Program-made: the position numbers and the translations under genes
Shown here: positions 3,926-30,298 of the stretch, in pieces
Numbering within the stretch: the first letter of the stretch is position 1
How the letters are laid out: each line of letters opens with the position of its first letter
The notes under the pieces: model-generated
The model's input: only the letters and a program-made list of their open reading frames with translations
Databases searched by the model: none
Told to the model about the DNA's origin: nothing
Assembly: GCA_030591965.1 (NCBI GenBank)
Contig: JAUVAA010000010.1
Coordinates: forward strand, 1-36,922
From: a bacterium
GTDB taxonomy: Bacteria; Pseudomonadota; Gammaproteobacteria; Methylococcales; Methylomonadaceae
DNA: 36,922 bases
Reading direction: 5' to 3'

Positions 3926-6900
3926 TTAATTCGACTTTTCTTTACTAAAGCGCTCACTAAAGCCTTGCATGACGGCATAAAACACAGGTGTAAATATTAA
4001 GGACATAGTCACTGCGGCAATCATACCGCCGTCCACTGCAGTACCAATCGCCTGACGACTTGCCGCACCTGCTCCACTAGCGACCATTAATGGCATAAAG
4101 CCTAAAATTGAGGAAAATGCCGTCATTAAAATCGCCCGGAAGCGTAACCGAGAAGCTTCAACGGCTGCATCAAAAATACTTATGCCTTTAGCGCGCTGTT
4201 CAGCTGCTAATTCAACAATCAAAATCGCATTTTTACTGGCCAAACCAATAATCAGTACAATCCCGATCTGGGTATAAACATTATTATCAAACTCGCGCAT
4301 CATTAAGGCAGCAACCGTACCCAATAAAGCTAATGGTACAACCAGTAGTACCGCCATCGGCAAACTCCAGCTTTCATATTGAGCGGCTAAAACCAAAAAC
4401 ACCAGAACAATCGCCAAAGCAAAAATAACGGTGGCTTCAGAGCCGACCTGCTTTTCTTGATAAGACATGCCTGTCCACTCAAAACCTAGTGAGTCAGGGA
4501 ATTTTTCTTGTGCCATTTGTTCCATTAGATTTAAGGCTTCGCCGGAACTAAATCCAGGTGCGGCACTGCCGGTAATGGAAGCGGCAGGGTAGAGGTTGTA
4601 ACGCAAAATAGTTTGTGGACCTAAAGTTTCATCCACTCTGATTAAGGTACCTAGCGGAATCATTTCGCCTTTTTTATTACGTACTTCGAGTTGACGTATG
4701 TCTTCGGGCTTTAAGCGAAACTCAGCATCTGCCTGGACTTTCACCTGCCAAGTACGACCAAATTGATTAAAATCATTTACATAAGCCGAGCCTAAGTAAG
4801 CCTGTAAGGTATTAAACACATCATTTAAAGGGATCTCTAAAGTTTTTGCTTTGGTACGATCTACTTCAGCAAATAATTGTGGTACACCAGCTCTAAAAGT
4901 GGAGTTAAGTTTCGCTAAGCCTGATTGGCTTTGGCTGTCTACGATCATTTCAGTTGCCATGCGCTGTAGTTCCTCTAAACCAGCATTGCCTCTGTCCTGA
5001 ATCTGCATTTGAAAACCACCGGAAACCCCTAAGCCCGGAATTGCGGGCGGGACAAAGGTAAATATAATGGCTTCTTGAATCTGGCTCAGCTTTTGATTCA
5101 GGTGTTGTAGAATGGCCTCTTGAGTTTCATTTTCAGCGGTGCGCTCTTCCCATGGCTTCATGACCACGAAAACTGTCGCTGCATTAGAGGCATTGGTGCC
5201 ATCGATCATGGAAAAGCCACCTAATGATATCCAGTCTCTTACACCTGGCGTTTCTTTTAAGATGTCATCAATTTTCCTTAGTACTTCATCGGTACGTTCC
5301 TTAGAGGAAGCATCGGGTAATTGCACTGCCGTAATGACATAACCTTGATCTTCTACTGGTAAAAAGGAAGCAGGAATTTTGCCAAATTGCCAGCCACTTG
5401 CAACCGCGATACCTAAAGCTAATAACATCATCAAAAAGCCACGGCGGACGACGATTTTTAAAAAATTGGCATAGCCATTAGAGCAGGCTTCAAAAAAACG
5501 ATCAAAGCCTCGAAAAAAAGCATTTTTGCTTTTTGGTGCAGGGCGTAATAATAATGCCGCTAATGCTGGGCTTAAGGTTAAAGCATTGAGTGAGCTGAAA
5601 ACGGTTGCTACTGCAATGGTGAGAGAAAATTGACGATACATTTCGCCGGTAATTCCAGGTAAAAAAGCGGTCGGTACAAATACGGCTAATAACACCAAAG
5701 TCGTTGCGACAACGGGGCCAGATACATCGCTCATGGCTTGAATGGCAGCTTCTCTTGAGGACATACCTTTTTCGATATAAGCGGCGGTCGCTTCGACCAC
5801 AACAATCGAGTCATCGACCACCACACCGATGGCAAGTACTAAACCAAATAAGGTCAGCATATTCAAGGAAAAGCCCATCATCGACATAACAATAAAAGTA
5901 GCAATTAATGATACCGGAATAGTCACTGCGGGAATCAGGGTAGAACGCCAGTCTTGCAAGAAAATAAATAAAACAATAAATACTAAAGCGCCGGCTTGAT
6001 ATAGGGTAACGAAAACTTCATTAATTGAAGCGCTAACAAAAAGTGTAGTGTCATAAGGGACTTTGTATTCAAGCCCTTGAGGGAAGTTTTTTTCTAATTC
6101 CTGCATTTTTGCGCGAACTTGATCGGCGACCTCTAAGGCGTTAGCCCCAGGTAATTGATAAATACTAATACTGGCTGAAGGTGCACCATTTACATTGGCG
6201 CTAATGTCGTAGGTTTTACCGCCTAAATCAATGCGAGCAACATCTTTTAAACGGGTGATAGCGCCATTTTTATCTGTTTTTATAATAATATCTTCAAATT
6301 GAGCAATATCTGTTAAGCGGCCTAAGACATTAATGGTGTATTGGAAGTTTGTGCCGGAAGGGACGGGAGGCTGGCCAATTTGGCCCGCTGCAACTTGTAC
6401 GTTTTGCTCACGCATCTCATTTAAGATATCTTGGGTGGTAATGCCCCGCGATTTCATTTGGTGAGGGTTGAGCCAAACCCGCATACTGTAATCACTAGGA
6501 GGGAAAATCATGACATCCCCAACCCCTTTAATACGTGCTAACTGGTCGCGAATATTTAAGGTTGCGTAATTACTTAAATACAATTCATCAAAGCTACTAT
6601 CTGGTGAGGTCAGGGTGATAAATAAGATAATATTAGCAGATTTCTTTTTGGTGCTAACGCCTTGGCGGTTTACTTCTTCAGGTAGATTAGGTGCTGCTAA
6701 AGCAACACGGTTTTGTACCATAACCTGAGCAATATCTAAGTCAGTACCGACTTCAAAAGTCACCGTTAAGGCATATGAGCCATCACCGGCACTGGTGGAT
6801 GACATATACAGCATGTTTTCCACACCGTTAACCTGTTGTTCAATTGGTGCCGCAACTGTCTCAGCAATAACCTGAGCATTAGCCCCTGGGTAAGTGGCTT

Positions 6901-17772: not shown

Positions 17773-20700
17773 GTGAGATTTATGAAGAAGAATAAACCAT
17801 GGATTTATCGCCGATTTAGCTTGGTATTTCTCCCTGCTACCTCCTTGATGATGCGGTTAAACTTCACCAAACGTGCGATTGTACTTGCCATCATCACCTT
17901 ATTTGCTTTTTCAATCGTAACAAGCAATTTATATAACCGTATTAATGCAGTTATCAAAACTTCAGAAAAAGAGCTGATTGGCTTAACCCTCTTATCACCT
18001 TTATTTAAAACAGTTCAGTTGCTACAACAGCATAGAGGGCTTTCATCAGGTGTGCTTGGTGGGACGGCAACACTGATAGAGCAACGCATAGAAAGACAAA
18101 AACAAACGGATGATGCATTCATTGTTTTAGCTAACACACTGCCATTAATTATTAGTGATTTTGAGCAATGGAAAACAATCATCAATGAATGGAGCTTAAT
18201 AAAAGAACAAGGGATGACTTGGTCTGTAAAAGATAATTTTTCCGAGCAGACTCTGATTATCGATCAATTGCTAATTCTTTCACAATCAATTGCTGATACC
18301 TATGCGCTAACTAATGCCCCTGATTTAGGTACTTTTTATTTACTTAATACAACAATCCAGCAGCTTGCCTCAACACAAGAATACCTAGGCCAAACACGTG
18401 CTTTTGGCACAGGAATGCTGGCAGAAAAGACGTCTTCTAATCTACAGAAATTACAAATCAACACTCTAATTGCTCAAGCAAATAAAGCGATTCATTTACT
18501 GCAGCGTAACCTTAAAAAAACAGCGTTTTATAACCCTTCAATTGAACAAACGTTATTACAGTCTGCTCAAAAAACATTTAACAGTTCGCACTATATTTTC
18601 GACTTGGTGGAATTAGACATTATTCAAGAGCAGTACAGCACCACGCCAAAGGACTTTTTTCAAATAACGACTGACGCTATTGATAATACCTATGAGATCA
18701 TGTTCAAGGTATTGTTGCCCACAACTGAATTACTGATCAAAAAGCAACGTTCAAATGCCAAACAAGTTCTTATCACCAGTGCCGTTATTGTTGTTCTGAT
18801 TTTTTTAGTTATGCTATATTTTTCAATAGGGATATATATAGCGACAGTTAAAAGCATTGATAGTATAGCAAAAGCAACATTAGCTTTTGCTAAAGGTGAT
18901 TTACACTCACGCTTAAAGCCAGCACCTAGAAGTGAACTTAACACGGTAATTAAAAGCTTTAATCAGATGGCTGATGAGTTAACGCGTCTTATAAATGCTG
19001 AAAAAGAAGATAAAGCACGTATAAACTCAATTATTGAATCAGCTCATGATGCATTGGTTCAAATAAATGCAGATGGAAATATCACAGGATGGAGCCATCA
19101 AGCAGAAGATATCTTTGGCTGGTCAAAAGATGATGTATTAGGTAAGTCTTTGCAAAAGACCATCGTGCCTGATCAATATAAAAAGGCATATATTCTAGAG
19201 TTAAAGCAATCCTTGCTGGCCCGTAAGGCAACAACGATGAATGAAGTGCGAGAAAAGACCGCACTTCATCGCGATGGTCATGAGTTCCCCATCGAAATTA
19301 GTGTCGCCCCCGTTAAAACTCATGAGGGTTATGAATTTAATGCTTTTATTCGTGATATTAGCGAACGTAAAGTGATTGAACAATCACTATGGGACAGCGA
19401 AGAACGCTACGGAAGTATTTTTGAAAACGCATTAACAGAGATATTTATATTTGATGCAGAAAGCTACAAGTTTATTAAAGCAAACCGTGGTGCCTGTAAA
19501 AATATTGGCTATAGTGAAGAAGAGCTAACTCAATTAACACCATTAGATATAAAGCCTGATGTGTCGCTAAAACAATTTAATGAATGGGTTGAACCACTTC
19601 GAACAGGTACAAAAGAGATTGTCCATTTTACAGCTGCGCATCAAAGAAAAAATGGTTCACTCTATCCTGTAGAAATTTATTTACAACTCACGCATTTCTT
19701 ATCAAAACCTGCTTTTGTTGCGATTATTTTAGATATTACCGAAAGGCTAAAAGCAGAAGAGAAACAGCAGTTGTCTGAGAAAGTGTTTAATAACACCAAT
19801 GAAGGTATTACCATTACAGATAATAAAGGAATTATCTTTGATGTAAATCCTGCATTCACTGAAATTACTGGATATAGCCGTGAAGAGGTTATAGGTAAAA
19901 ATCCGCGAATGTTAAGCTCGGGTAAACAAAGCCCTGAGTTTTACGCCAACATGTGGCAAAAAATTAATGAACAGGGACATTGGCAAGGCGAGGTATGGAA
20001 TAAAACTAAGGGTGGAGAACTCTATGCCGAGTTACTTTCTATTTCACCTATGTTTGATGATACCGGTAAGGTATTGCATTATGTTGGTATATTCTCAGAT
20101 ATTACGCACAGTAAAACACAACAAGAGTCCCTTGTACAAATGGCACATTATGATGTGTTAACACAGCTTCCAAATCGAGTGCTTTTAACTGATCGATTTA
20201 CTCAAGCACTTGCCCATAGCAAACGACACGAAAATATACTTGCAGTCTGCTTTCTAGATTTGGATGATTTTAAACCTGTTAATGATCTTTATGGCCATAA
20301 AGCAGGTGATGAATTATTGATTGAAGTTGCTAAACGAATTAAAAGCACCATTAGAGAGGAGGATACTGTTTCTCGTCAAGGGGGAGATGAGTTTGTTCTT
20401 TTATTAGGCGATATTGAATCATTTTCTCAATGTGAGCATACGCTTAAACGGATTATAGAATCACTTTCTCAGCCTTATCATATTGCTAAGCAGTCAATGT
20501 CTATTAGCGCATCTATTGGTATTACTTTGTATCCTTTAGATAATGCAGACTTTGATACCTTAATGCGACATGCCGATCAAGCGATGTATCAAGCAAAATT
20601 AGCGGGAAAAAATCGTTACCATTTATTTAGTGCCGAGAAAGATCAACTCATTATTCAAAAAAACATCCAACTTAAGGAAGTGGAGCAGGCTTTAAAAAAC

Positions 20701-21813
20701 CAAGAGCTTTGTTTGTTTTATCAACCTAAAGTGAATATGAAAACAGGACAAGTTTTTGGTGCAGAAGCATTAATCCGCTGGCTTCACCCTGACAAAGGCT
20801 TAATTCCTCCTCTTAAGTTCTTACCCGTTATAGAGGAAACTGAATTAGAAATTCAGGTAGGTAATTGGGTGATTAATGAAGCCTTAAAACAACTTGATGA
20901 CTGGAGAGAGCAGGGGATTAATATAGAAGTCAGTATTAATATCTCCTCCTACCATATGCAGACCCCTTCTTTCGTTGCTGACCTTCGAGCCGCTATAGCC
21001 TTATACCCAAAAGTACATTCAAAGAAGGTCCAGCTGGAAATATTAGAAAGTAGTACCTTAGGTGATATTCAATCGATAAGTCGTATTATAAAATCCTGTA
21101 TTCATGAGTTAGGAGTTAATGTGGCTTTGGATGACTTTGGTACGGGCTATTCATCACTCACGCACTTAAGAAGCTTGCCGGCGCAAACGATTAAAATCGA
21201 CCAATCTTTTGTTAGGGATATGCTTGATGATCCAAATGACTATGCCATTATTGATGGGATTATCGGCCTTGCAGAATCTTTTAATCGTGAGGTTATTGCC
21301 GAAGGGGTTGAAACATCGGATCACGGATTAATGTTACTTGCAGCAGGCTGTTATGAAGCACAAGGTTATGGCATTGCACGCCCAATGCCAGCCGATAAAA
21401 TTCCAACATGGTTATCTGGCTATAAGCCGGATACACAGTGGACAACATTTGTTGAAAATAAATACTCAGCAAAACAAATTAAGATACAACTACTTTTACT
21501 AAGTTTAAAGCACTGGAAAAATAGCTTTGAAAATAACATGCAGTCTGAGCCAGGTAGTGTTGCTAAATGGCCTCAGTTAAAAAGAAAAAAATGCCATTGT
21601 GGTATTTTTATTAAGCAAGCTATCCAAGATCAACTCTTTGATGAGTCGTGGATAAAAGAACTGGAAGCAGCGCATAATGCGATGCACAATATTGCCAGTG
21701 ATTTGTCTAATAAATATCAAGAAGGTAATGTAGGCAGTGCAAGAAATGGGCTAGATAAACTTCAAATAGCTGTCGACAAAATGACGGATATTTTGGAGCA
21801 ATATGAAAAATAA
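17773..21813 (+). CDS. Membrane sensor: NIT-like periplasmic domain, HAMP, three PAS, GGDEF, EAL and CZB-like domain
   Basis: LLQQHRGLSSGVLGG (NIT-like) between two TM segments; RQGGDEFVLLLGD; GAEALIRWLHP; C-terminal LKHWKNSF...CHCGIFI...AAHNAMHNIA (CZB-like). Confidence 0.9.
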   Translation: MRFMKKNKPWIYRRFSLVFLPATSLMMRLNFTKRAIVLAIITLFAFSIVTSNLYNRINAVIKTSEKELIGLTLLSPLFKTVQLLQQHRGLSSGVLGGTATLIEQRIERQKQTDDAFIVLANTLPLIISDFEQWKTIINEWSLIKEQGMTWSVKDNFSEQTLIIDQLLILSQSIADTYALTNAPDLGTFYLLNTTIQQLASTQEYLGQTRAFGTGMLAEKTSSNLQKLQINTLIAQANKAIHLLQRNLKKTAFYNPSIEQTLLQSAQKTFNSSHYIFDLVELDIIQEQYSTTPKDFFQITTDAIDNTYEIMFKVLLPTTELLIKKQRSNAKQVLITSAVIVVLIFLVMLYFSIGIYIATVKSIDSIAKATLAFAKGDLHSRLKPAPRSELNTVIKSFNQMADELTRLINAEKEDKARINSIIESAHDALVQINADGNITGWSHQAEDIFGWSKDDVLGKSLQKTIVPDQYKKAYILELKQSLLARKATTMNEVREKTALHRDGHEFPIEISVAPVKTHEGYEFNAFIRDISERKVIEQSLWDSEERYGSIFENALTEIFIFDAESYKFIKANRGACKNIGYSEEELTQLTPLDIKPDVSLKQFNEWVEPLRTGTKEIVHFTAAHQRKNGSLYPVEIYLQLTHFLSKPAFVAIILDITERLKAEEKQQLSEKVFNNTNEGITITDNKGIIFDVNPAFTEITGYSREEVIGKNPRMLSSGKQSPEFYANMWQKINEQGHWQGEVWNKTKGGELYAELLSISPMFDDTGKVLHYVGIFSDITHSKTQQESLVQMAHYDVLTQLPNRVLLTDRFTQALAHSKRHENILAVCFLDLDDFKPVNDLYGHKAGDELLIEVAKRIKSTIREEDTVSRQGGDEFVLLLGDIESFSQCEHTLKRIIESLSQPYHIAKQSMSISASIGITLYPLDNADFDTLMRHADQAMYQAKLAGKNRYHLFSAEKDQLIIQKNIQLKEVEQALKNQELCLFYQPKVNMKTGQVFGAEALIRWLHPDKGLIPPLKFLPVIEETELEIQVGNWVINEALKQLDDWREQGINIEVSINISSYHMQTPSFVADLRAAIALYPKVHSKKVQLEILESSTLGDIQSISRIIKSCIHELGVNVALDDFGTGYSSLTHLRSLPAQTIKIDQSFVRDMLDDPNDYAIIDGIIGLAESFNREVIAEGVETSDHGLMLLAAGCYEAQGYGIARPMPADKIPTWLSGYKPDTQWTTFVENKYSAKQIKIQLLLLSLKHWKNSFENNMQSEPGSVAKWPQLKRKKCHCGIFIKQAIQDQLFDESWIKELEAAHNAMHNIASDLSNKYQEGNVGSARNGLDKLQIAVDKMTDILEQYEK

Positions 21814-22116: not shown

Positions 22117-23250
22117 CTAAATTTCCGCCTCAGTTAAATAACAGCCTGGGTCTTCTGCCCAAGCGTCACCATAAACTTGTTGTGCCCTAACTCGGGTATT
22201 GCCATTACAAATAGCTTGATAAGTACATGTTGCACAGCGGCCTTTTAACGGGCGTGGTGACTGTTTCATGCCTGCCATGAGCGGGTCAGACGTATCTTGC
22301 CAGATTTCTGAAAAAGGGCGTTGCCGTACATTGCCCAAATCATAATGCCACCAAAATGTATCGGGGTGAACATTGCCTAGGTTATCAATATTAGCGACAT
22401 TAACGCCAGAAGCATTGCCGCCCCATTGTTCGAGTTTGGCTTGAATATGTTCAGTTTGTTCTGGAAATCTGCGTTTTACCCAGTGCAAAAAATACACGGC
22501 ATCGGCATCATTATTACCCGTGACGATTTCTCTATGTAGCGCTTTTTGTTCCCATTCCAGGCACTTTTCAAATAGCATATCCATCACTTCGCGGGTCATG
22601 GTAAAAAAGGCATCGGCTTTACGGTTTTTATTGCCTCGGCCACCATAATTAAGATGGGATAGGTAAAACTTGTCTAAGTCTTCATCATCCATTAATTGCA
22701 GCATCGCAGGGAAATCCTGTACGTTGTCTTGGGTTAAGGTATAGCGAATGCCGGCTTTAATACCTTGTTGCTGACATAAGTGAATGCCACGAATCGAGGC
22801 ATCAAATGAGCCTTTTTGTTGGCGGAATGCATCATGTGTAGCACCAATACCATCTAAACTAATGCCGACATATTGATAATTAATTGCGGCTATTTGTTGG
22901 ATATTCTGTTTGGTAATTAATGTGCCATTACTGGATAGGGCAACATAAAAGCCCATATCACGTGCGCGTTGAGAAATCGTAAAAATATCAGGGTGTAATA
23001 AAGGTTCGCCACCGGATAAAATCAACACGGGGACTTTAAAGGCTTTCAAATCATCCATGACTTTAAAGATAGCATTCGTACTTAATTCATCTGGAAAATC
23101 AATATTCGCAGACGTGGTATAGCAATGTTTGCAGGTTAAATTACAGCGACGGATTAAGTTCCAGATAACGACTGGTGCGGCTGGTTTACGGGCTGGTTTT
23201 AGCGGAGTAGGGTGTAGTACCTCGCGCATAAATTGACTAAGACGAAACAT
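22117..23250 (-). CDS. nirJ: Heme d1 biosynthesis radical SAM protein NirJ
   Basis: Radical SAM motif CNLTCKHC, C-terminal Cys cluster GRCATCTYQAICNGN, and NirDLGH-like genes immediately upstream. Confidence 0.95.
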   Translation of the reverse strand: MFRLSQFMREVLHPTPLKPARKPAAPVVIWNLIRRCNLTCKHCYTTSANIDFPDELSTNAIFKVMDDLKAFKVPVLILSGGEPLLHPDIFTISQRARDMGFYVALSSNGTLITKQNIQQIAAINYQYVGISLDGIGATHDAFRQQKGSFDASIRGIHLCQQQGIKAGIRYTLTQDNVQDFPAMLQLMDDEDLDKFYLSHLNYGGRGNKNRKADAFFTMTREVMDMLFEKCLEWEQKALHREIVTGNNDADAVYFLHWVKRRFPEQTEHIQAKLEQWGGNASGVNVANIDNLGNVHPDTFWWHYDLGNVRQRPFSEIWQDTSDPLMAGMKQSPRPLKGRCATCTYQAICNGNTRVRAQQVYGDAWAEDPGCYLTEAEI

Positions 23251-23720
23251 TATTTAATCCTTAAACCGGTTTTTTTTAAAATGCGTGTGCTGTATAGCAC
23301 TTCATGCGCGCGACAATGTTCGCCCAGTAATTTAGCTATTTGTTGGATTTGTTGTTCGGCAGCATCGGCAGTTTTTCCATGAACCATAGCGAATAAATTA
23401 TATGACCAATCAGGCAAATGACGTGGGCGATGATAACAATGGCTGACAAACTCTAAAGCACCTACTTTTTTTCCTAACTGATCAATAAAGGCGTCGTCGA
23501 TATCCCAAACAGTCATGCCATTGTGTTTATAGCCTAATTTGTAATGATTAGGAATGGCACCAATACGCCGAATAATGCCAAGTTCTTGCATGCGTGTTAA
23601 GCGTTGCATGAGCTTGTCGGCGCTAATACCAATTTGTTCGGCAAGGGTTTGGTAGGGTTCGGGCGTTAGCGGCAATCCAGTTTGGCTGGCGCTGATAATT
23701 TTACGGTCTATTGCATCCAT
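23250..23720 (-). CDS. nirH: Siroheme decarboxylase subunit, NirH-like
   Basis: AsnC/Lrp-like 156-aa protein with HCYHRPRHLPDWSYNLFAMVHGK; position in the nir order; overlaps nirJ. Confidence 0.85.
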   Translation of the reverse strand: MDAIDRKIISASQTGLPLTPEPYQTLAEQIGISADKLMQRLTRMQELGIIRRIGAIPNHYKLGYKHNGMTVWDIDDAFIDQLGKKVGALEFVSHCYHRPRHLPDWSYNLFAMVHGKTADAAEQQIQQIAKLLGEHCRAHEVLYSTRILKKTGLRIK

Positions 23721-24163
23721 TAGGCTTCCAGTTTTAAGCCGACAAAGTATTCTTGTATTTTGGGCATGTTATAGACAGTTAATCCAGTTTGGGCTTCAAT
23801 TTGTCTAATCACTTGCTGGATTTGTTCAGGCGTTTCTGTGGCAAGAACAAACCACATATTTAATGTGTGTTCGCGTGCGTAATTATGCGCCACTTCAGGA
23901 AATGAATTAATAATCTCAGCAATAGTATCGTAGCTATCTTCGGGCGCCTTAACTGCCGCCAAAGTTAAAGCACCACCCATTTGTTCAGCATGAAACATCG
24001 GGCCAAAGCGCGATAATATGCCGCTATCTAATAATGTCTGTAAGCGCTCAATTAATGCCTGTTCGCTGATATTTAAAGTCTCGGCTACTTTTTTATAAGG
24101 TGAAGGGCAAATAGGAAAGCCATCTTGTAAACTGTTAATAATTGCGCGGTCTATTTCGTCCAT
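23720..24163 (-). CDS. nirG: Siroheme decarboxylase subunit, NirG-like
   Basis: 147 aa with FPEVAHNYAREHTLNMWFVLATE. Confidence 0.85.
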   Translation of the reverse strand: MDEIDRAIINSLQDGFPICPSPYKKVAETLNISEQALIERLQTLLDSGILSRFGPMFHAEQMGGALTLAAVKAPEDSYDTIAEIINSFPEVAHNYAREHTLNMWFVLATETPEQIQQVIRQIEAQTGLTVYNMPKIQEYFVGLKLEA

Positions 24164-24191
24164 TATTGTCTTTATAGGGGGATTATGGGAG

Positions 24192-24255
24192 CAATGCTGT
24201 TGACTTAAGCCCTCTCTTGTTGGAGAAGGTGCTTATTCTTAAGTCAACAGTATTG
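24192..24255. repeat. 64-bp dispersed palindromic repeat, family A
   Basis: CAATGCTGTTGACTTAAG...CTTAAGTCAACAGTATTG; between nirL and nirG. Confidence 0.8.
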
Positions 24256-24257
24256 GG

Positions 24258-24307
24258 TTGTGGGAGCGACTTTAGTCGCGGTTTTCGTGGCTAAAGCCAC
24301 TCCCACG
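24258..24307. repeat. REP-like palindrome overlapping the 3' end of nirL
   Basis: GTGGGAGCGACTTTAGTCGCGGTTTTCGTGGCTAAAGCCACTCCCAC hairpin. Confidence 0.85.
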
Positions 24308-24781
24308 CGGAAAATAAAGCGCACCACGCTGTTTAAAACAGCGACGGCTAAATAAAATATCATGTGCATAATTTTCTAAAGCACAGTTTTCAATGAGATA
24401 ACTTAGCTGCTGCAGTACTTTCTCACGGGTTTTTCCATGAATCATGCAAAACAAATTATATGGCCACTGTTCGCCATGACGCGGGCGTTGATAGCATAAG
24501 TTAATAAAATGAAACTGACTTATCCGCTGCCCCATTTCATTGGCGAGTGTATCTGGCATATCAAAAACCACCATCGCATTGGAGCGATAGCCTAAGCGAC
24601 GGTGTTTGACGATCACACCGAGTCGTTTAATTAAGCCTTGCTGTTTGAGCTTGCTAAGGCGTGTGATGACTTCGTTTTCATCTAAATTTAACTGTTCAGC
24701 AATCAGTGCATAAGGACGTGAAGCAATCGGTAAGCCTTCTTGCACGGCGGCAATTAATTGTAAGTCTATCGGCTCTATCAT
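24272..24781 (-). CDS. nirL: Siroheme decarboxylase subunit, NirL-like
   Basis: 169 aa with NLCYQRPRHGEQWPYNLFCMIHGK; C-terminal codons lie in the REP palindrome. Confidence 0.82.
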   Translation of the reverse strand: MIEPIDLQLIAAVQEGLPIASRPYALIAEQLNLDENEVITRLSKLKQQGLIKRLGVIVKHRRLGYRSNAMVVFDMPDTLANEMGQRISQFHFINLCYQRPRHGEQWPYNLFCMIHGKTREKVLQQLSYLIENCALENYAHDILFSRRCFKQRGALYFPRGSGFSHENRD

Positions 24782-25260
24782 GCGCTAACGAAAAGGTTTT
24801 CTTCTTGAGGTTCTAAATTGAGTTGAAAACCTAAGTTAATAAAATAATCTTCTAGCAAGGGCAGTTGCATGGTTTTAAAGCTTGTTTGTAGTTCAATTTT
24901 CTCAATAACGCTGGATAGATGTTGTTGATCGCTGGCAATAAGGACAAACCAAAGGTTAAAGCGATGCTCGCGTTCATAATTGTGGTTTACTTCGGGAAAC
25001 TGACTGACTATATCCGCGACTTTAATTATGTGTGTTTCGGGGATAGCCATAGCAACTAAGGTGCTGATACCCAATTGGTTCGGCTGGATAATCGGCCCGA
25101 TACGACTAATAAAGTCCTGCTCTGATAAGACAGAAAATGCCGCAAGCACTTCCTCTTCAGTGACGCCTAAGGAGTTGGCAATATCTAAGTAAGGCGTAGG
25201 TGATAGCGGAAAGTCCTGCTGATAATCATTGAGCAGTTGTTTGTGTAGTGTAGACAGCAT
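24778..25260 (-). CDS. nirD: Siroheme decarboxylase subunit, NirD-like
   Basis: 160 aa with FPEVNHNYEREHRFNLWFVLIAS; overlaps nirL by 4 bp. Confidence 0.82.
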   Translation of the reverse strand: MLSTLHKQLLNDYQQDFPLSPTPYLDIANSLGVTEEEVLAAFSVLSEQDFISRIGPIIQPNQLGISTLVAMAIPETHIIKVADIVSQFPEVNHNYEREHRFNLWFVLIASDQQHLSSVIEKIELQTSFKTMQLPLLEDYFINLGFQLNLEPQEENLFVSA

Positions 25261-25273
25261 TTCGATTCAACGA

Positions 25274-25546
25274 TTACACATCGAGGTGTATTTTATTGAT
25301 AGTATATTGGTGCACTAGCATTTGAATAATATTTTGATAGGGCACGCCATTTTCAAGGCTTTTTCTTTTTAATTCATAGAGATCATTTTCAGGTAATCTG
25401 ATTGAGACTGCTTTTTTTTTCTCCTGTTTGATATAGCTTTGTAACTCTAAAGTTCTTTGTTGTAGATCACCTGTACTGTGCCACTCGCCATTTTCAACGC
25501 TCTCTAAAATACCTTGCTCATATTCGTCTAACTTGTATTCAGTCAT
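25274..25546 (-). CDS. Ribbon-helix-helix antitoxin (BrnA/CopG-like)
   Basis: KKAVSIRLPENDLYELKRKSLENGVPYQNIIQMLVHQY; overlaps the toxin-like ORF by 8 bp. Confidence 0.8.
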   Translation of the reverse strand: MTEYKLDEYEQGILESVENGEWHSTGDLQQRTLELQSYIKQEKKKAVSIRLPENDLYELKRKSLENGVPYQNIIQMLVHQYTINKIHLDV

Positions 25547-25841
25547 TGTGTTTCTCCGTGTTGTAGCGCTTGTTCATTTTACGAGAAGGGATAATGGTTT
25601 TCAAAAAAATGGTATGCTCGTCTTCAACATACGGCACGATATAAACATAGTTTTTAATGCTTATGAGTATGATCAAAACTGACTGATTGGGGTATTTTTC
25701 GGTGTTTGGGTGCGCCAGATTAGCAAGTATATTATTTGAATTTATGGCGAGATATACATCTTCAAAACCAACGCCCCTTTCTTTTTTTAATTGAGCATTC
25801 TTTTCTGGAGAAAAGCGTATTTGTTTATTTTTAAATAGCAT
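25539..25841 (-). CDS. BrnT-like type II toxin
   Basis: IRFSPEKNAQLKKERGVGFEDVYLAI...DEHTIFLKTIIPSRKMNKRY; toxin-first gene order. Confidence 0.72.
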   Translation of the reverse strand: MLFKNKQIRFSPEKNAQLKKERGVGFEDVYLAINSNNILANLAHPNTEKYPNQSVLIILISIKNYVYIVPYVEDEHTIFLKTIIPSRKMNKRYNTEKHND

Positions 25842-25884: not shown

Positions 25885-27078
25885 TTACAACCCCATCTTA
25901 TGCGCCCGTGAGCTAAAAAATATACCGCTGGGTTTATTCGCAGGTAAACGGCTTATTTCTTTAAAGCTGCTAGTATCATAAATAAGCACTTGGTTATCAT
26001 CACGCGCGGAAACCCAGACATGTTCACCGCGCGGGGTAAATTCCATATGTAAAACGGCTTTTCCCGGCGTTAAAGCTTTTACTATTTGTAGCTCCTTAGC
26101 ATCAATCACTTGTACCTGAGCATTATCAGGGAATGCAAAATTAACCCAAATTTGCCGGCCATCGGGACGTGCCATCACAAACACCGGCTGACCGATAACG
26201 GGAATGCGTTTAACTAACTGCCAAGTATTTTGATCGACAACTAAAACTTCATGCTGCCCGACGGCAGGGACAAACATTAAATTCCCCGCCATTGCCCAGC
26301 CTTCTAAATGCGGCATTTTATACACAGGCATTTTTTCGTCATTTTTACCGTAATCGGGCAAAATTCGTTTTACACCTTGTTCGGGTGACCATAAGTCTAA
26401 TAAAGCTAAGCCGCGATCACCAAATAAACCGGCAATATAATAACGGCCATCAGGCGAGAGCAGGGCATCATAAGGTTGCTTGCCGATGTTTTTAAATTTC
26501 TCAATTTTGGGTTGTGTCGGGTCTTTAAGGTCGGCAATCCAAATTTCACCGGCATCAAATAAACTGAAAATAAATTTCTGATCCGGTGCATCGACTAAGC
26601 CAACCACTTTGGATAATTGTTGACTATCATACAAAGCAGGAATATCCGCGATTAATTCCAGTGTTTCAGTGGAGAAAATTTTAACGCCGCCGGGGGTGTA
26701 ATTGGACACAGCAATCAGCTTGCCATCTTGAGAAATAGCACCGCCAATACTGTTACCCGCTTGAATAATACGTTTGGCTATTTTGTCTTGTAATAAGTCT
26801 ATTTTAGTCAGACCACCATCGCGACCAAAAATAAAAGCATAACGCGCATCGCGAGAATAAACGATAGAGGCATGAGATAAATCTCCTAGACCTGAAATCT
26901 TGCTGATGCTGTTATTCGTGCTGGTATTGATGATTTGTATGGCCGCAGGTTCGCGCTCAATAATCACGCCTAAATCACCTGTTCCACGTAATTCAGTACA
27001 GCCGAATTGGCTAAAAGCGAGGCTAAAGAGCAGCGGGAATTTACTGAAGCGTGAGAAGGAGAAAGGGCATTTAATCAT
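25885..27078 (-). CDS. nirF: Heme d1 biosynthesis protein NirF (lipoprotein)
   Basis: MPHLEGWAMAGNLMFVPAVGQHEVLVVDQ, GQPVFVMARPDGRQIWVNFAFPDN, terminal KPSGIFFSSRAHKMGL; lipobox-like SQFGC. Confidence 0.95.
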   Translation of the reverse strand: MIKCPFSFSRFSKFPLLFSLAFSQFGCTELRGTGDLGVIIEREPAAIQIINTSTNNSISKISGLGDLSHASIVYSRDARYAFIFGRDGGLTKIDLLQDKIAKRIIQAGNSIGGAISQDGKLIAVSNYTPGGVKIFSTETLELIADIPALYDSQQLSKVVGLVDAPDQKFIFSLFDAGEIWIADLKDPTQPKIEKFKNIGKQPYDALLSPDGRYYIAGLFGDRGLALLDLWSPEQGVKRILPDYGKNDEKMPVYKMPHLEGWAMAGNLMFVPAVGQHEVLVVDQNTWQLVKRIPVIGQPVFVMARPDGRQIWVNFAFPDNAQVQVIDAKELQIVKALTPGKAVLHMEFTPRGEHVWVSARDDNQVLIYDTSSFKEISRLPANKPSGIFFSSRAHKMGL

Positions 27079-27409
27079 GTTGTTGTCTTAGTAAGGTCTG
27101 AATAAACCAGCGAGTTTCTTGTTCGGTGATAAAAGGCTTCCATGGCGGCATCGCTGTACCTTTACGGCCATTTTGGATAGTATCTAACAAATAGTCGTCA
27201 GGTTTATTGGCCAAATCTTTGGCTAATAAAGAAGGACCGAGTCCACCTTTTAAGGTTAATCCATGGCAAGAGCCGCAATCATGCTTAAGCATGTTACGCA
27301 GTTCTTTTTGTCTGTCCTGCGGAGGATTCTGCGCGAAAGCGGGGGCTGTGTTAATAAAACATAAGCTTAATAATAGAGCTAATCGGTTGTGTGGCCATGA
27401 CAAATACAT
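27071..27409 (-). CDS. nirC: c-type cytochrome NirC
   Basis: CGSCHGLTLKGGLGPSLLAKDLANKPDDYLLDTIQNGRKGTAMPPWKPF; overlaps nirF. Confidence 0.85.
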   Translation of the reverse strand: MYLSWPHNRLALLLSLCFINTAPAFAQNPPQDRQKELRNMLKHDCGSCHGLTLKGGLGPSLLAKDLANKPDDYLLDTIQNGRKGTAMPPWKPFITEQETRWFIQTLLRQQHD

Positions 27410-27410
27410 T

Positions 27411-28154
27411 TTATTTTAGTATTTTGCGTGCATTTCTGGCTTGTAGCGGACGATTATTCGGGGTATCAATAATATGACCGAAATGTTCAATTTGTCCAGC
27501 GGCAGCCGTTAGTGGTTGCTTTAAAACTAACCATAAAACATTTTCAGTGCAAGGCGGGGTCGTTAATGAACCATTGTATCGGTAATAAGCCAAGTCATTT
27601 GGTAGCAGGCCTTTTGCTGATATGGCTGGTAATTGCTTATTTATTGCGCCTGATTTTTCCGGCATTAATGCCCAGATGTCTTTGAGTGTTGGGTTTTCCA
27701 TGCCTTTCGAAAACATAATTGAGAGTACCGCTAAATTACCTAATTTATCGATATGTGTTAACTGTGCTTCTAAAGGATATGATTTGCCGTCGATCTGATT
27801 TTCGCTAGGGGAGTGAAATTGTAACTGCGTTAACTCATACTTATGATCATTGATGGATAAGGTGCTGCCGCGTTGAAAGTTAATTTGAATCGTATGGCCA
27901 TTGTTAACAATGTCACTGGCATTGGCGTTATAGCGGACTGTCAGTGGTGCTAATTTGGCATCAACAAAATTACTAAGATTAATAGGTGCCTGGCCTGTGC
28001 CGGTAGTGCAAGTAGTGTAATCAGAGCTTAAAGTACCCCAGTTTTTAGGCCCTTCTTGTCCAGAGTATGCCCACGCTGCTAGTTTAGGTTGGTTGATTAG
28101 TGCACAGCCTGAACTTAGTAAGGCGATTGTTAGGAGGCTTAATTTTATTTTCAT
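27411..28154 (-). CDS. Alpha-carbonic-anhydrase-like (CA-related) lipoprotein with two substituted Zn ligands
   Basis: WAYSGQEGPKNWG, NNGHTIQINF, QLQFHSPSEN, YPLEAQLTHID, GSLTTPPCTENVLW; N-terminal ALLSSGC lipobox-like site. Confidence 0.9.
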   Translation of the reverse strand: MKIKLSLLTIALLSSGCALINQPKLAAWAYSGQEGPKNWGTLSSDYTTCTTGTGQAPINLSNFVDAKLAPLTVRYNANASDIVNNGHTIQINFQRGSTLSINDHKYELTQLQFHSPSENQIDGKSYPLEAQLTHIDKLGNLAVLSIMFSKGMENPTLKDIWALMPEKSGAINKQLPAISAKGLLPNDLAYYRYNGSLTTPPCTENVLWLVLKQPLTAAAGQIEHFGHIIDTPNNRPLQARNARKILK

Positions 28155-28281: not shown

Positions 28282-28404
28282 GTAGGGTGGGCAACGCTTT
28301 TTTGCCCACCATTTTAAATGCAAATCCTATTGTGTATTACGGCTCAATGATAAAGAACCTTGTTTTTCATTATTTGGTGGGCAAAAGAAAGCTGCCCACC
28401 CTAC
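28282..28404. repeat. Paired hairpins forming a larger inverted repeat
   Basis: GTAGGGTGGGCAACGCTTTTTTGCCCACC (28282-28310) and GGTGGGCAAAAGAAAGCTGCCCACCCTAC (28376-28404). Confidence 0.9.
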
Positions 28405-28412
28405 GCCTAATA

Positions 28413-28724
28413 TTAAGGTTTTAAGCGACTATAATACGAGGCAATATTATCAATATCACGATCAGATAATGAACCCGCAATATTATTCATAATTTCGGAT
28501 ACGCGTGTTTTATTACGGTACTGTTTTAAGGCGTTTTCCATATACTCTTCATCACGCCCTGCTAAAGGCGGAAAAGGCGCTTCCGCACTTGTTTTACGAA
28601 TACCATGACATTGCGAACAGACAGCCGCGGCTTTAGATTTTCCAGCATAAATACTGGTCGCCTGACTGGGCGCGCTAAAGCTAAAAGCCAGTAGTGTTGC
28701 GAGTGAATAAGTAAGTAGTTTCAT
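28413..28724 (-). CDS. Small periplasmic class I cytochrome c
   Basis: Signal peptide; VCSQCHG heme motif; 103 aa. Confidence 0.88.
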   Translation of the reverse strand: MKLLTYSLATLLAFSFSAPSQATSIYAGKSKAAAVCSQCHGIRKTSAEAPFPPLAGRDEEYMENALKQYRNKTRVSEIMNNIAGSLSDRDIDNIASYYSRLKP

Positions 28725-28729
28725 TGGTC

Positions 28730-30298
28730 TTACTCCATTTCGTCAGGTGATAATCCACGCGTCATATATTTCACACGGCCACGCGAGAAAATACCTGCTG
28801 GGCTTTCCATTTGTATAGAACCGGTTTTTTTCAATGAAGTTGAATCGTAAACAACGACTTCATCACCGGCATAACCCGCGCTGACATATAAAGACTTACC
28901 ATCGGCACTGTATTCTGGGAAGTAGGCATGACCGCCGACATCTAAAGTTTTAACCACCTCTAATGATTTTTTATCAATCAATTGAATAGTACGAGCGCGT
29001 CTGTCTTTAGTAATAATATCCACGGCAACATAAGGTGCATTAGCATGAGCGGCTGGTGATTCTGTACCACCAGAAACAGGGATTAGTTTAACCAGTTTCA
29101 TCGTATCTAAGTCCCAAACGCTGACCACGGTTTTATCGCAAGTACCGAAGTTAGTACCAAAACCTAAAGTACGACCATCCACTTTAACGGCTGCGCCACC
29201 ACCCACATGTGGTACACAACCCGCTGGTAATTTTTTGATAATTTCGCGTTTTTCTAAATCAATCGCGGTCACAATGCTATCGTCATACGAGGCAATCATT
29301 AATTTTTTGCCTTTATGGGTTAAGAAAGCATCATGTAAATGACGGCCGACATTTTTTATTTTAGTGACAGGGAAGTCATCTTTTAAATCCACGACCCAAA
29401 CTTGGCCAGCATTTTCTAAGGCAATCGCGAAAATATCTGCATACGGCGTACCAATCACCATACCTGAATCAGAACTCACCATTTTACCGTCAGGATCGAT
29501 GCCTTCTAATTCAAATTGCTTTAAAGGCTCTAAAGTATCTGCGTCTAAAATAACGGCGTTATGCGGAACGAAAGAACCGGCCATCAAATATTTGCCATCG
29601 CGCGAAATACCGATGCCAGGGCCATTCCAGCCTGTTTTAATGCTGCGTACCGCTTGCATCGTATATAAATCAACTTTATAGATTTCTGCCGTATCGGTTT
29701 TTACATAAGCCCAGCGCTCATTAGCCGGACTAAATTCAATAATATGTGCTGCAGTTACCGTGGGTACTACACCGACTTGTTGGTGCGTTTTGCTATTAAT
29801 AAATACCGCTTCTGAACCATCGCCGCGACCGTATTTTCCGCGTGCAGCAACGCCGATAATATCGTCCATGCTATCGATTTTAAACGTCGGTTTATTCGGT
29901 AGTTTAGACTCGTCTTTTACATAAACTTTTAAAGACGCTTTCATATCTTTAATAGTGAAAGCAGGATTGGCTAATTTTGGCGTGCTTTGTAAATGCTTGA
30001 CCATGTCGCGGATATCGCTATCGGATAAACGGCCGAAAAACGGAGGCATTAAAGTTTCAAAGCTACCGGTCATAATCAAAGTACGTAAAGCCGTTGGGCT
30101 GCGACCTTTTAGGGTTTCGGAATTCAACGCTGGAGCTAAATAACCTCCATGATCTGAACCATGACAGCTGGCACAGTTGTCTTGATAAAGCTGGTGCATT
30201 TTATGCTTATTACCAGCCTCCGCGAATACGCTGGAGCTAAAGAGTAAACTGATGCTTGCGGCTAGAATGGATTTTTTTATTATTGTTGTCGCTTCCAT
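28730..30298 (-). CDS. Atypical cytochrome c-d1 protein (NirS/NirN-like)
   Basis: Signal peptide, CASCHG heme c motif, eight-bladed-type d1 propeller with TAAHIIEFSP, RHLHDAFL and VPHVGGGA; terminal SPAGIFSRGRVKYMTRGLSPDEME. Confidence 0.85.
   Translation of the reverse strand: MEATTIIKKSILAASISLLFSSSVFAEAGNKHKMHQLYQDNCASCHGSDHGGYLAPALNSETLKGRSPTALRTLIMTGSFETLMPPFFGRLSDSDIRDMVKHLQSTPKLANPAFTIKDMKASLKVYVKDESKLPNKPTFKIDSMDDIIGVAARGKYGRGDGSEAVFINSKTHQQVGVVPTVTAAHIIEFSPANERWAYVKTDTAEIYKVDLYTMQAVRSIKTGWNGPGIGISRDGKYLMAGSFVPHNAVILDADTLEPLKQFELEGIDPDGKMVSSDSGMVIGTPYADIFAIALENAGQVWVVDLKDDFPVTKIKNVGRHLHDAFLTHKGKKLMIASYDDSIVTAIDLEKREIIKKLPAGCVPHVGGGAAVKVDGRTLGFGTNFGTCDKTVVSVWDLDTMKLVKLIPVSGGTESPAAHANAPYVAVDIITKDRRARTIQLIDKKSLEVVKTLDVGGHAYFPEYSADGKSLYVSAGYAGDEVVVYDSTSLKKTGSIQMESPAGIFSRGRVKYMTRGLSPDEME

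Follow-up and report, generated by a model that had tools for sequence, protein, structure and literature searches.

A carbonic anhydrase-related putative lipoprotein with a Gln-His-Gln zinc site in the heme d1 operon of a small group of methanotrophs

The window, a stretch of 36,922 nucleotides from a member of the Methylomonadaceae (contig JAUVAA010000010.1), carries a heme d1 operon on its minus strand. The gene order is NirS-like cytochrome cd1, cytochrome c, carbonic anhydrase (CA), NirC, NirF, a toxin-antitoxin pair, four NirD/L/G/H-like genes and NirJ. The features are listed below with their supporting matches.

28730-30298, minus strand: NirS-like cytochrome cd1, 522 aa (PF02239, 1.1e-48; 6rtd, 4.4e-42; 1bl9, 3.9e-20)
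28413-28724, minus strand: c-type cytochrome of the c4/c554 type, in the nirM position
27411-28154, minus strand: alpha-CA-related putative lipoprotein, 247 aa, Q94/H96/Q119 (PF00194; alignment to human CA II and 30 intact relatives; dN/dS)
28104-28154, minus strand: signal peptide with lipobox LSSG-C17 and Ala at +2 (read from the sequence; lipid anchoring predicted)
27071-27409, minus strand: NirC (cytochrome c55X; 6tp9, 7.5e-20)
25885-27078, minus strand: NirF (PF02239, 1.7e-114)
25539-25841, minus strand: BrnT-like toxin, an accessory gene inserted after nirF and before nirD (PF04365, 2.1e-5, under the profile's cut-off)
25274-25546, minus strand: CopG/BrnA-like antitoxin (PF12441, 2.2e-6)
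23250-25260, minus strand: four siroheme decarboxylase genes, nirD-, L-, G- and H-like (24778-25260 by PF22451/PF17805, AhbA-like)
22117-23250, minus strand: NirJ radical SAM enzyme (TIGR04051, 627.9 bits, cut-off 515)

The profile and PDB matches of the neighbours bear out the original prediction that the CA gene is flanked by a cytochrome c gene and by nirC-nirF in a d1 operon. Its stop codon and the nirC start are one base apart (TAA-A-ATG), and nirC and nirF overlap by eight bases. The profile scan covered the decarboxylase gene at 24778-25260, and the genes at 24272-24781, 23720-24163 and 23250-23720 were assigned by order and resemblance. Aligned to Pseudomonas NirS, the NirS-like protein retains the proximal His of the d1 site as well as the two distal His. 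It is nearer by sequence to NirN (6rtd) than to NirS, yet it has both distal His, one of which is missing from NirN; an additional nirN gene was not found in the operon. Divergent nirS genes in methanotrophs are already known (PMC4594100, PMC8788690). Partial relatives of the toxin-antitoxin pair (25274-25841) were found at the same joint in locus L036, and a CopG-like gene lies at a different joint in L089.

The ORF at 27411-28154 starts with ATG, and its product belongs to the alpha-CA family (PF00194, E=3.9e-39 over residues 35-245, 135.2 bits against a gathering score of 27). Bacterial alpha-CAs are its best solved relatives, for example that of Persephonella marina (6im0, E=1e-69). An AlphaFold (AF2) model with a mean pLDDT of 84 has the predicted alpha-CA fold, and its best Foldseek match in the PDB was the Neisseria gonorrhoeae CA 1koq (prob 1.0, TM 0.90 by target). 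The fold signatures read earlier from motifs are all present, including H64, E106, T199 and the invariant pair C49 and C202. The N-terminus (MKIKLSLLTIALLSSGC) has the form of a lipoprotein signal and would place the protein in the periplasm on a lipid anchor.

The metal site was read from a MAFFT alignment to human CA II, and alignments to solved bacterial CAs gave the same register. Opposite 6im0, 'qlqfh' stands against 'qfhfh' and 'leaqlth' against 'feahfvh'. The codons concerned are as follows.

27819-27821, minus strand: CAA, residue 112, position 94, His to Gln (alignment)
27813-27815, minus strand: CAC, residue 114, position 96, His retained (alignment)
27762-27764, minus strand: CAG, residue 131, position 119, His to Gln (alignment)
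27756-27758, minus strand: ACA, residue 133, position 121, Val to Thr (Val invariant in 30 intact relatives)

Where catalytic alpha-CAs have the zinc ligands His94, His96 and His119, this protein thus has Gln, His and Gln. The replacements at 94 and 119 and the retention of H96 agree with the earlier motif reading; H122, counted there as well, is kept but is no zinc ligand. The gatekeepers Thr199 and Glu106 and the shuttle residue His64 of catalytic alpha-CAs are retained, together with Q92, E117, T200 and W209. Other changes relative to human CA II are H107 to N and V121 to T. The PSEN motif (N107) was rejected as a hallmark of this protein, since most close intact relatives also have N107. 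With two of its three His replaced, the protein falls within the definition of a CA-related protein (CARP), an alpha-CA fold without at least one zinc-binding His (PMC2873310). The altered zinc site agrees with the earlier proposal that the protein is probably no classical CO2 hydratase.

Two congeneric methanotroph orthologues with 84-85% identity were found, one in a Methylococcaceae MAG (JAIPFI010000068.1) and one in the Bathymodiolus puteoserpentis endosymbiont (NZ_FQTQ01000017.1). Both have the identical Q/H/Q residues and gene order, with the CA gene one base upstream of nirC, so that the junction is the same in all three species having the CA. Sequencing error, chance and MAG contamination are rejected, because two other species, assembled independently, share these residues and the synteny. 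The Q/H/Q CA in the d1 operon is a trait of a small group of deep-sea-type methanotrophs. The next relatives, from the same family (44-53% identity), have His-His-His, and no nir genes were found near them. None of the intact CAs examined had nir genes beside it, the class-level contexts having been checked over about 1.5 kb of flank per side. In the tree the three Q/H/Q orthologues formed one clade (100/100) inside a group (100/93) with three intact methanotroph CAs. Because the clade nests with intact CAs, the histidines were lost in the Q/H/Q lineage, which sits on a long stem branch (0.5 changes per column). The window genome has a second alpha-CA, on contig C78, with His-His-His, and CO2 hydration need therefore not rest on the Q/H/Q protein.

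Pairwise dN/dS of the CA gene among the three species was 0.09-0.11 at dS 0.7-1.1. This is comparable to nirD and nirC and looser than the nirS-like gene (0.03-0.04). The gene is therefore maintained by purifying selection despite the lost ligands, and a pseudogene is rejected. Only positions 94, 119, 121 and 206 were conserved in at least 80% of the 30 intact relatives and yet changed in all three orthologues. Three of these four (94, 119 and 121) lie in the metal site, which indicates a focused alteration and not general decay. The codons at 94 (CAA) and 119 (CAG) are identical in the three species, whereas that for T121 differs silently (ACA/ACG); codon variation alone thus adds little support for the two Gln.

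Orthologues of nirF were found in 150 of the 237 genomes of the family. The same operon, known from methanotrophs such as Methylomicrobium album BG8, is thus widespread here, but the CA does not normally belong to it: among 23 d1 operons inspected the CA was present in three, and the operon stood without it at the other 20 loci. The genome sets held one genome per species, covering about half of the known species and including many MAGs, and absence from a draft genome is weak evidence. A remnant in genome G163 is direct evidence. In a tree of NirF and the NirS-like protein, the three CA carriers, G163 and G122 formed a five-species clade (100/100) whose inner branching was poorly resolved. 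The G163 operon lacks the CA, but the terminal 56 bases of the gene, its 3' end, remain (80% identity, E=6e-11 against the orthologous locus L033), at about 6340-6420 of locus L081 (G163:C110) in operon orientation. An ancestor of G163 therefore had the CA, which later disappeared from an operon that was itself retained. In G163 nirC an ATA replaces the old ATG, and an in-frame ATG lies upstream, within the CA remnant. The nirC gene now probably starts from the remnant, and the deletion appears to have re-made its start codon.

A general heme d1 factor is rejected on the distribution and the G163 deletion. Together with the ligand-deficient CAs found elsewhere without nir genes, these make the link to d1 synthesis weaker than the original prediction suggested, although the protein may have a more specific role as a scaffold or in handling d1 precursors. 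The CA is an accessory part of the d1 operon, and it is not the only one. In six relatives, other species of the same genus (L082, L083, L084, L089, L090 and L091), nirC and nirF are separated by a gene for a secreted CreA-family protein (153 aa, PF05981, 7e-51). A CopG-like gene precedes nirC in G046, and larger inserts occur in G091, G024 and G077.

The pattern of a kept H96, Gln at 119 and a changed residue at 94 (X-H-Q) is common to animals and bacteria and is not bound to nir operons. Among 88 collected alpha-CAs with readable ligands, human CA II included, 82 were His-His-His and three were the Q-H-Q clade. The remaining three were Ala-His-Gln (G603), Glu-His-Gln (G190) and His-His-Asp (G187). 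A DNA pattern census of position 94, in which divergent cases are undercounted because the pattern requires intact flanking residues, gave a His codon in 58 of 59 class-sample matches, the exception being the window. The same pattern in the phylum sample detected one more Gln94, in G843, where the protein is also Q-H-Q. A single origin of all X-H-Q proteins was rejected (p-AU 3e-5), the tree showing four changes, with the caveats that the grouping was defined post hoc and that long branches are present. X-H-Q arose at least three more times in the sampled bacteria (as Q-H-Q, E-H-Q and A-H-Q), outside nir operons. The link between the Gln pair and a nir neighbourhood holds for all three close Q/H/Q orthologues, but not for the X-H-Q CAs elsewhere.

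The independent Q94/H96/Q119 protein of G843 (L217, contig C359, 9521-10360, plus strand) has Arg64 and lies near MotA/MotB-like and FolD-like genes, not nir genes. The G190 protein (L128, contig C79, 6231-7136, minus strand) has Glu94, Gln119 and Arg121 and lies directly downstream of hemC-hemD-hemX-hemY. That of G603 (L127, contig C61, 8364-9077, minus strand) has Arg64, His92, Ala94, Gln119 and Thr121, shares Gln119-Thr121 with the window protein and lies in a region with phnM. The G187 protein (L129, contig C15) has Asp119 with His94 and His96. A general tie of ligand-deficient CAs to tetrapyrrole genes was considered and rejected, as an intact CA of G125 shares its contig stretch with hemCDY and the other X-H-Q cases lie near phnM or MotB/FolD-like genes. 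Coincidence is the likelier explanation for hemCDXY beside the G190 gene.

Animal CARPs (CARP VIII, X, XI and the cnidarian secreted forms) likewise combine the alpha-CA fold with the replacement of one or two zinc ligands. In cnidarian CARPs, His-His-His has repeatedly become Arg-His-Gln (PMC4981384). They resemble the window protein in their kept H96, Gln119 and changed position 94, but have Arg at 94 where it has Gln. Unlike the animal proteins, it is a predicted bacterial lipoprotein derived from gammaproteobacterial periplasmic alpha-CAs and encoded in a heme d1 operon. Its origin is likely to be separate, as it nests with intact methanotroph CAs at 100/93 in a tree built without animal CARPs. 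The bacterial periplasmic alpha-CAs of Neisseria (1koq), Persephonella (6im0) and Thermovibrio (4c3t) are closest by sequence and fold (42-49% identity). Those of them that were aligned residue by residue have His where the window protein has Gln. Dioscorin, a storage protein of yam, is a zinc-less case. It combines the alpha-CA fold with a small acid ligand (4twl, solved with ascorbate; match E=8e-22), but it is a plant protein with 33% identity and an unrelated context. Literature searches for a carbonic anhydrase with nirF/nirS found nothing, and those for bacterial CAs with lost zinc ligands found no description.

At about an even chance, we suggest that the protein is a bacterial CARP: a pseudoenzyme of the alpha-CA type, recruited as a non-catalytic binding partner in the periplasmic compartment of NirS, NirC and NirF. 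An alpha-CA would have entered the nirS-cytochrome c-nirC-nirF-nirDLGHJ operon of one small methanotroph clade. Two zinc ligands would then have been replaced by Gln (Q94/H96/Q119, plus T121), and the protein would since have been kept as a folded periplasmic lipoprotein. It would hold no catalytic zinc under physiological conditions and would not hydrate CO2 efficiently. By analogy with animal CARPs, it may bind a protein or a small acid or tetrapyrrole side group in the cavity that it retains (H64, H96, E106, E117, T199), the most plausible place for this being close to NirC/NirF or NirS. The role would be one of optional tuning, because relatives keep d1 operons without the CA. This reading is supported by Q-H-Q in three of three orthologues, the low dN/dS, the four focused changes, the third-base drift at T121 with Thr kept, the CA gene running in operon direction up to an exact TAA-A-ATG junction, and the second, His-His-His CA of the genome. 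The independent X-H-Q proteins of G843, G190 and G603 and the cnidarian Arg-His-Gln forms (PMC4981384) point the same way. Against a partner role, the operon also holds clearly accessory genes (the toxin-antitoxin pair, and CreA in relatives). The G163 deletion and the absence from most d1 operons mean that the place of the CA in the operon may be incidental.

If the place is incidental, the gene could encode a maintained periplasmic CARP unrelated to heme d1, for which the operon was a tolerant landing site giving expression. We consider this unlikely, although it comes nearest among the alternatives. Unrelated genes at several operon joints (BrnT/CopG, the CopG-like gene in G046, CreA in six relatives and the inserts in G091, G024 and G077), the intact G163 operon and the non-nir contexts of the other X-H-Q CAs all favour it. 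It fits less well with the same position and one-base nirC junction in three species, and with the finding that, among the CA loci checked (class-level flank about 1.5 kb), only the three orthologues had nir genes beside them. More doubtful is a re-tuned metalloprotein, in which Gln94/His96/Gln119 binds Zn or, for example, Cu weakly and keeps a hydratase, esterase or other activity, for instance at a metal-rich vent. H96, E106, E117, T199, T200 and H64 are all intact, as such a protein would need. Single His-to-carboxamide (Gln or Asn) variants of human CA II bind zinc more weakly, yet still bind it and keep some activity. H119N and H119Q are among the zinc-affinity mutants discussed in PMC10175565. 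Here, however, two ligands were altered at once and V121 along with them, and natural CARPs lacking at least one zinc-binding His are described as inactive (PMC2873310, PMC4981384).

Least probable is a decaying gene on its way to loss, with pseudogenisation begun at the active site. G163 is already without the CA and the clade has a long stem (0.5 changes per column), but the ORF is open in three species, dN/dS is about 0.1 at dS 0.7-1.1, and the fold residues and both Cys are kept. The selection signature largely refutes it. A narrower form of the partner role starts from the work of NirF and NirC, which were recently shown to use water in turning a dilactone precursor into the form that bears the heme d1 keto groups (PMC13168839). 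The CA could be their third periplasmic partner in this step, its zinc-free cavity binding, or helping to open, the lactone/carboxylate side groups of their substrate. We regard this as improbable, only slightly less so than decay; if true, it would be a CA-derived tetrapyrrole-handling protein, of which the present analysis found no example.

Carbonic anhydrases that have lost ligands to zinc are treated chiefly as proteins of animals, and the preferred reading as a co-opted CARP concerns a bacterial case kept by selection. Its defined operon holds few candidate partners, so that the function of such proteins becomes testable with simple proteins. Several independent bacterial cases are added to the X-His-Gln convergence, and the recurrence of Gln119 with His96 kept hints at a structural cause rather than random loss.

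Positions 28285-28401, in the gap that separates the cytochrome c gene from the CA, hold repeats of the form GGTGGGCAA...TTGCCCACC, of which the genome has partial copies at other places. The 145 bp upstream of the CA have only partial repeats elsewhere in the genome, and an RNA element there was dropped as a candidate since Rfam gave no match of weight. At L035 (the same locus as L033; 3363-4022 in operon orientation) a gene for a 219-aa protein with a Gly/Cys-rich tail follows the cytochrome c gene and precedes the CA; the protein has no Pfam match and occurs at this place in the Tobar MAG only. Beyond nirJ, on the opposite strand (17773-21813), the window encodes a 1346-aa NIT-HAMP-PAS-GGDEF-EAL protein, NIT being a nitrate/nitrite sensing domain.
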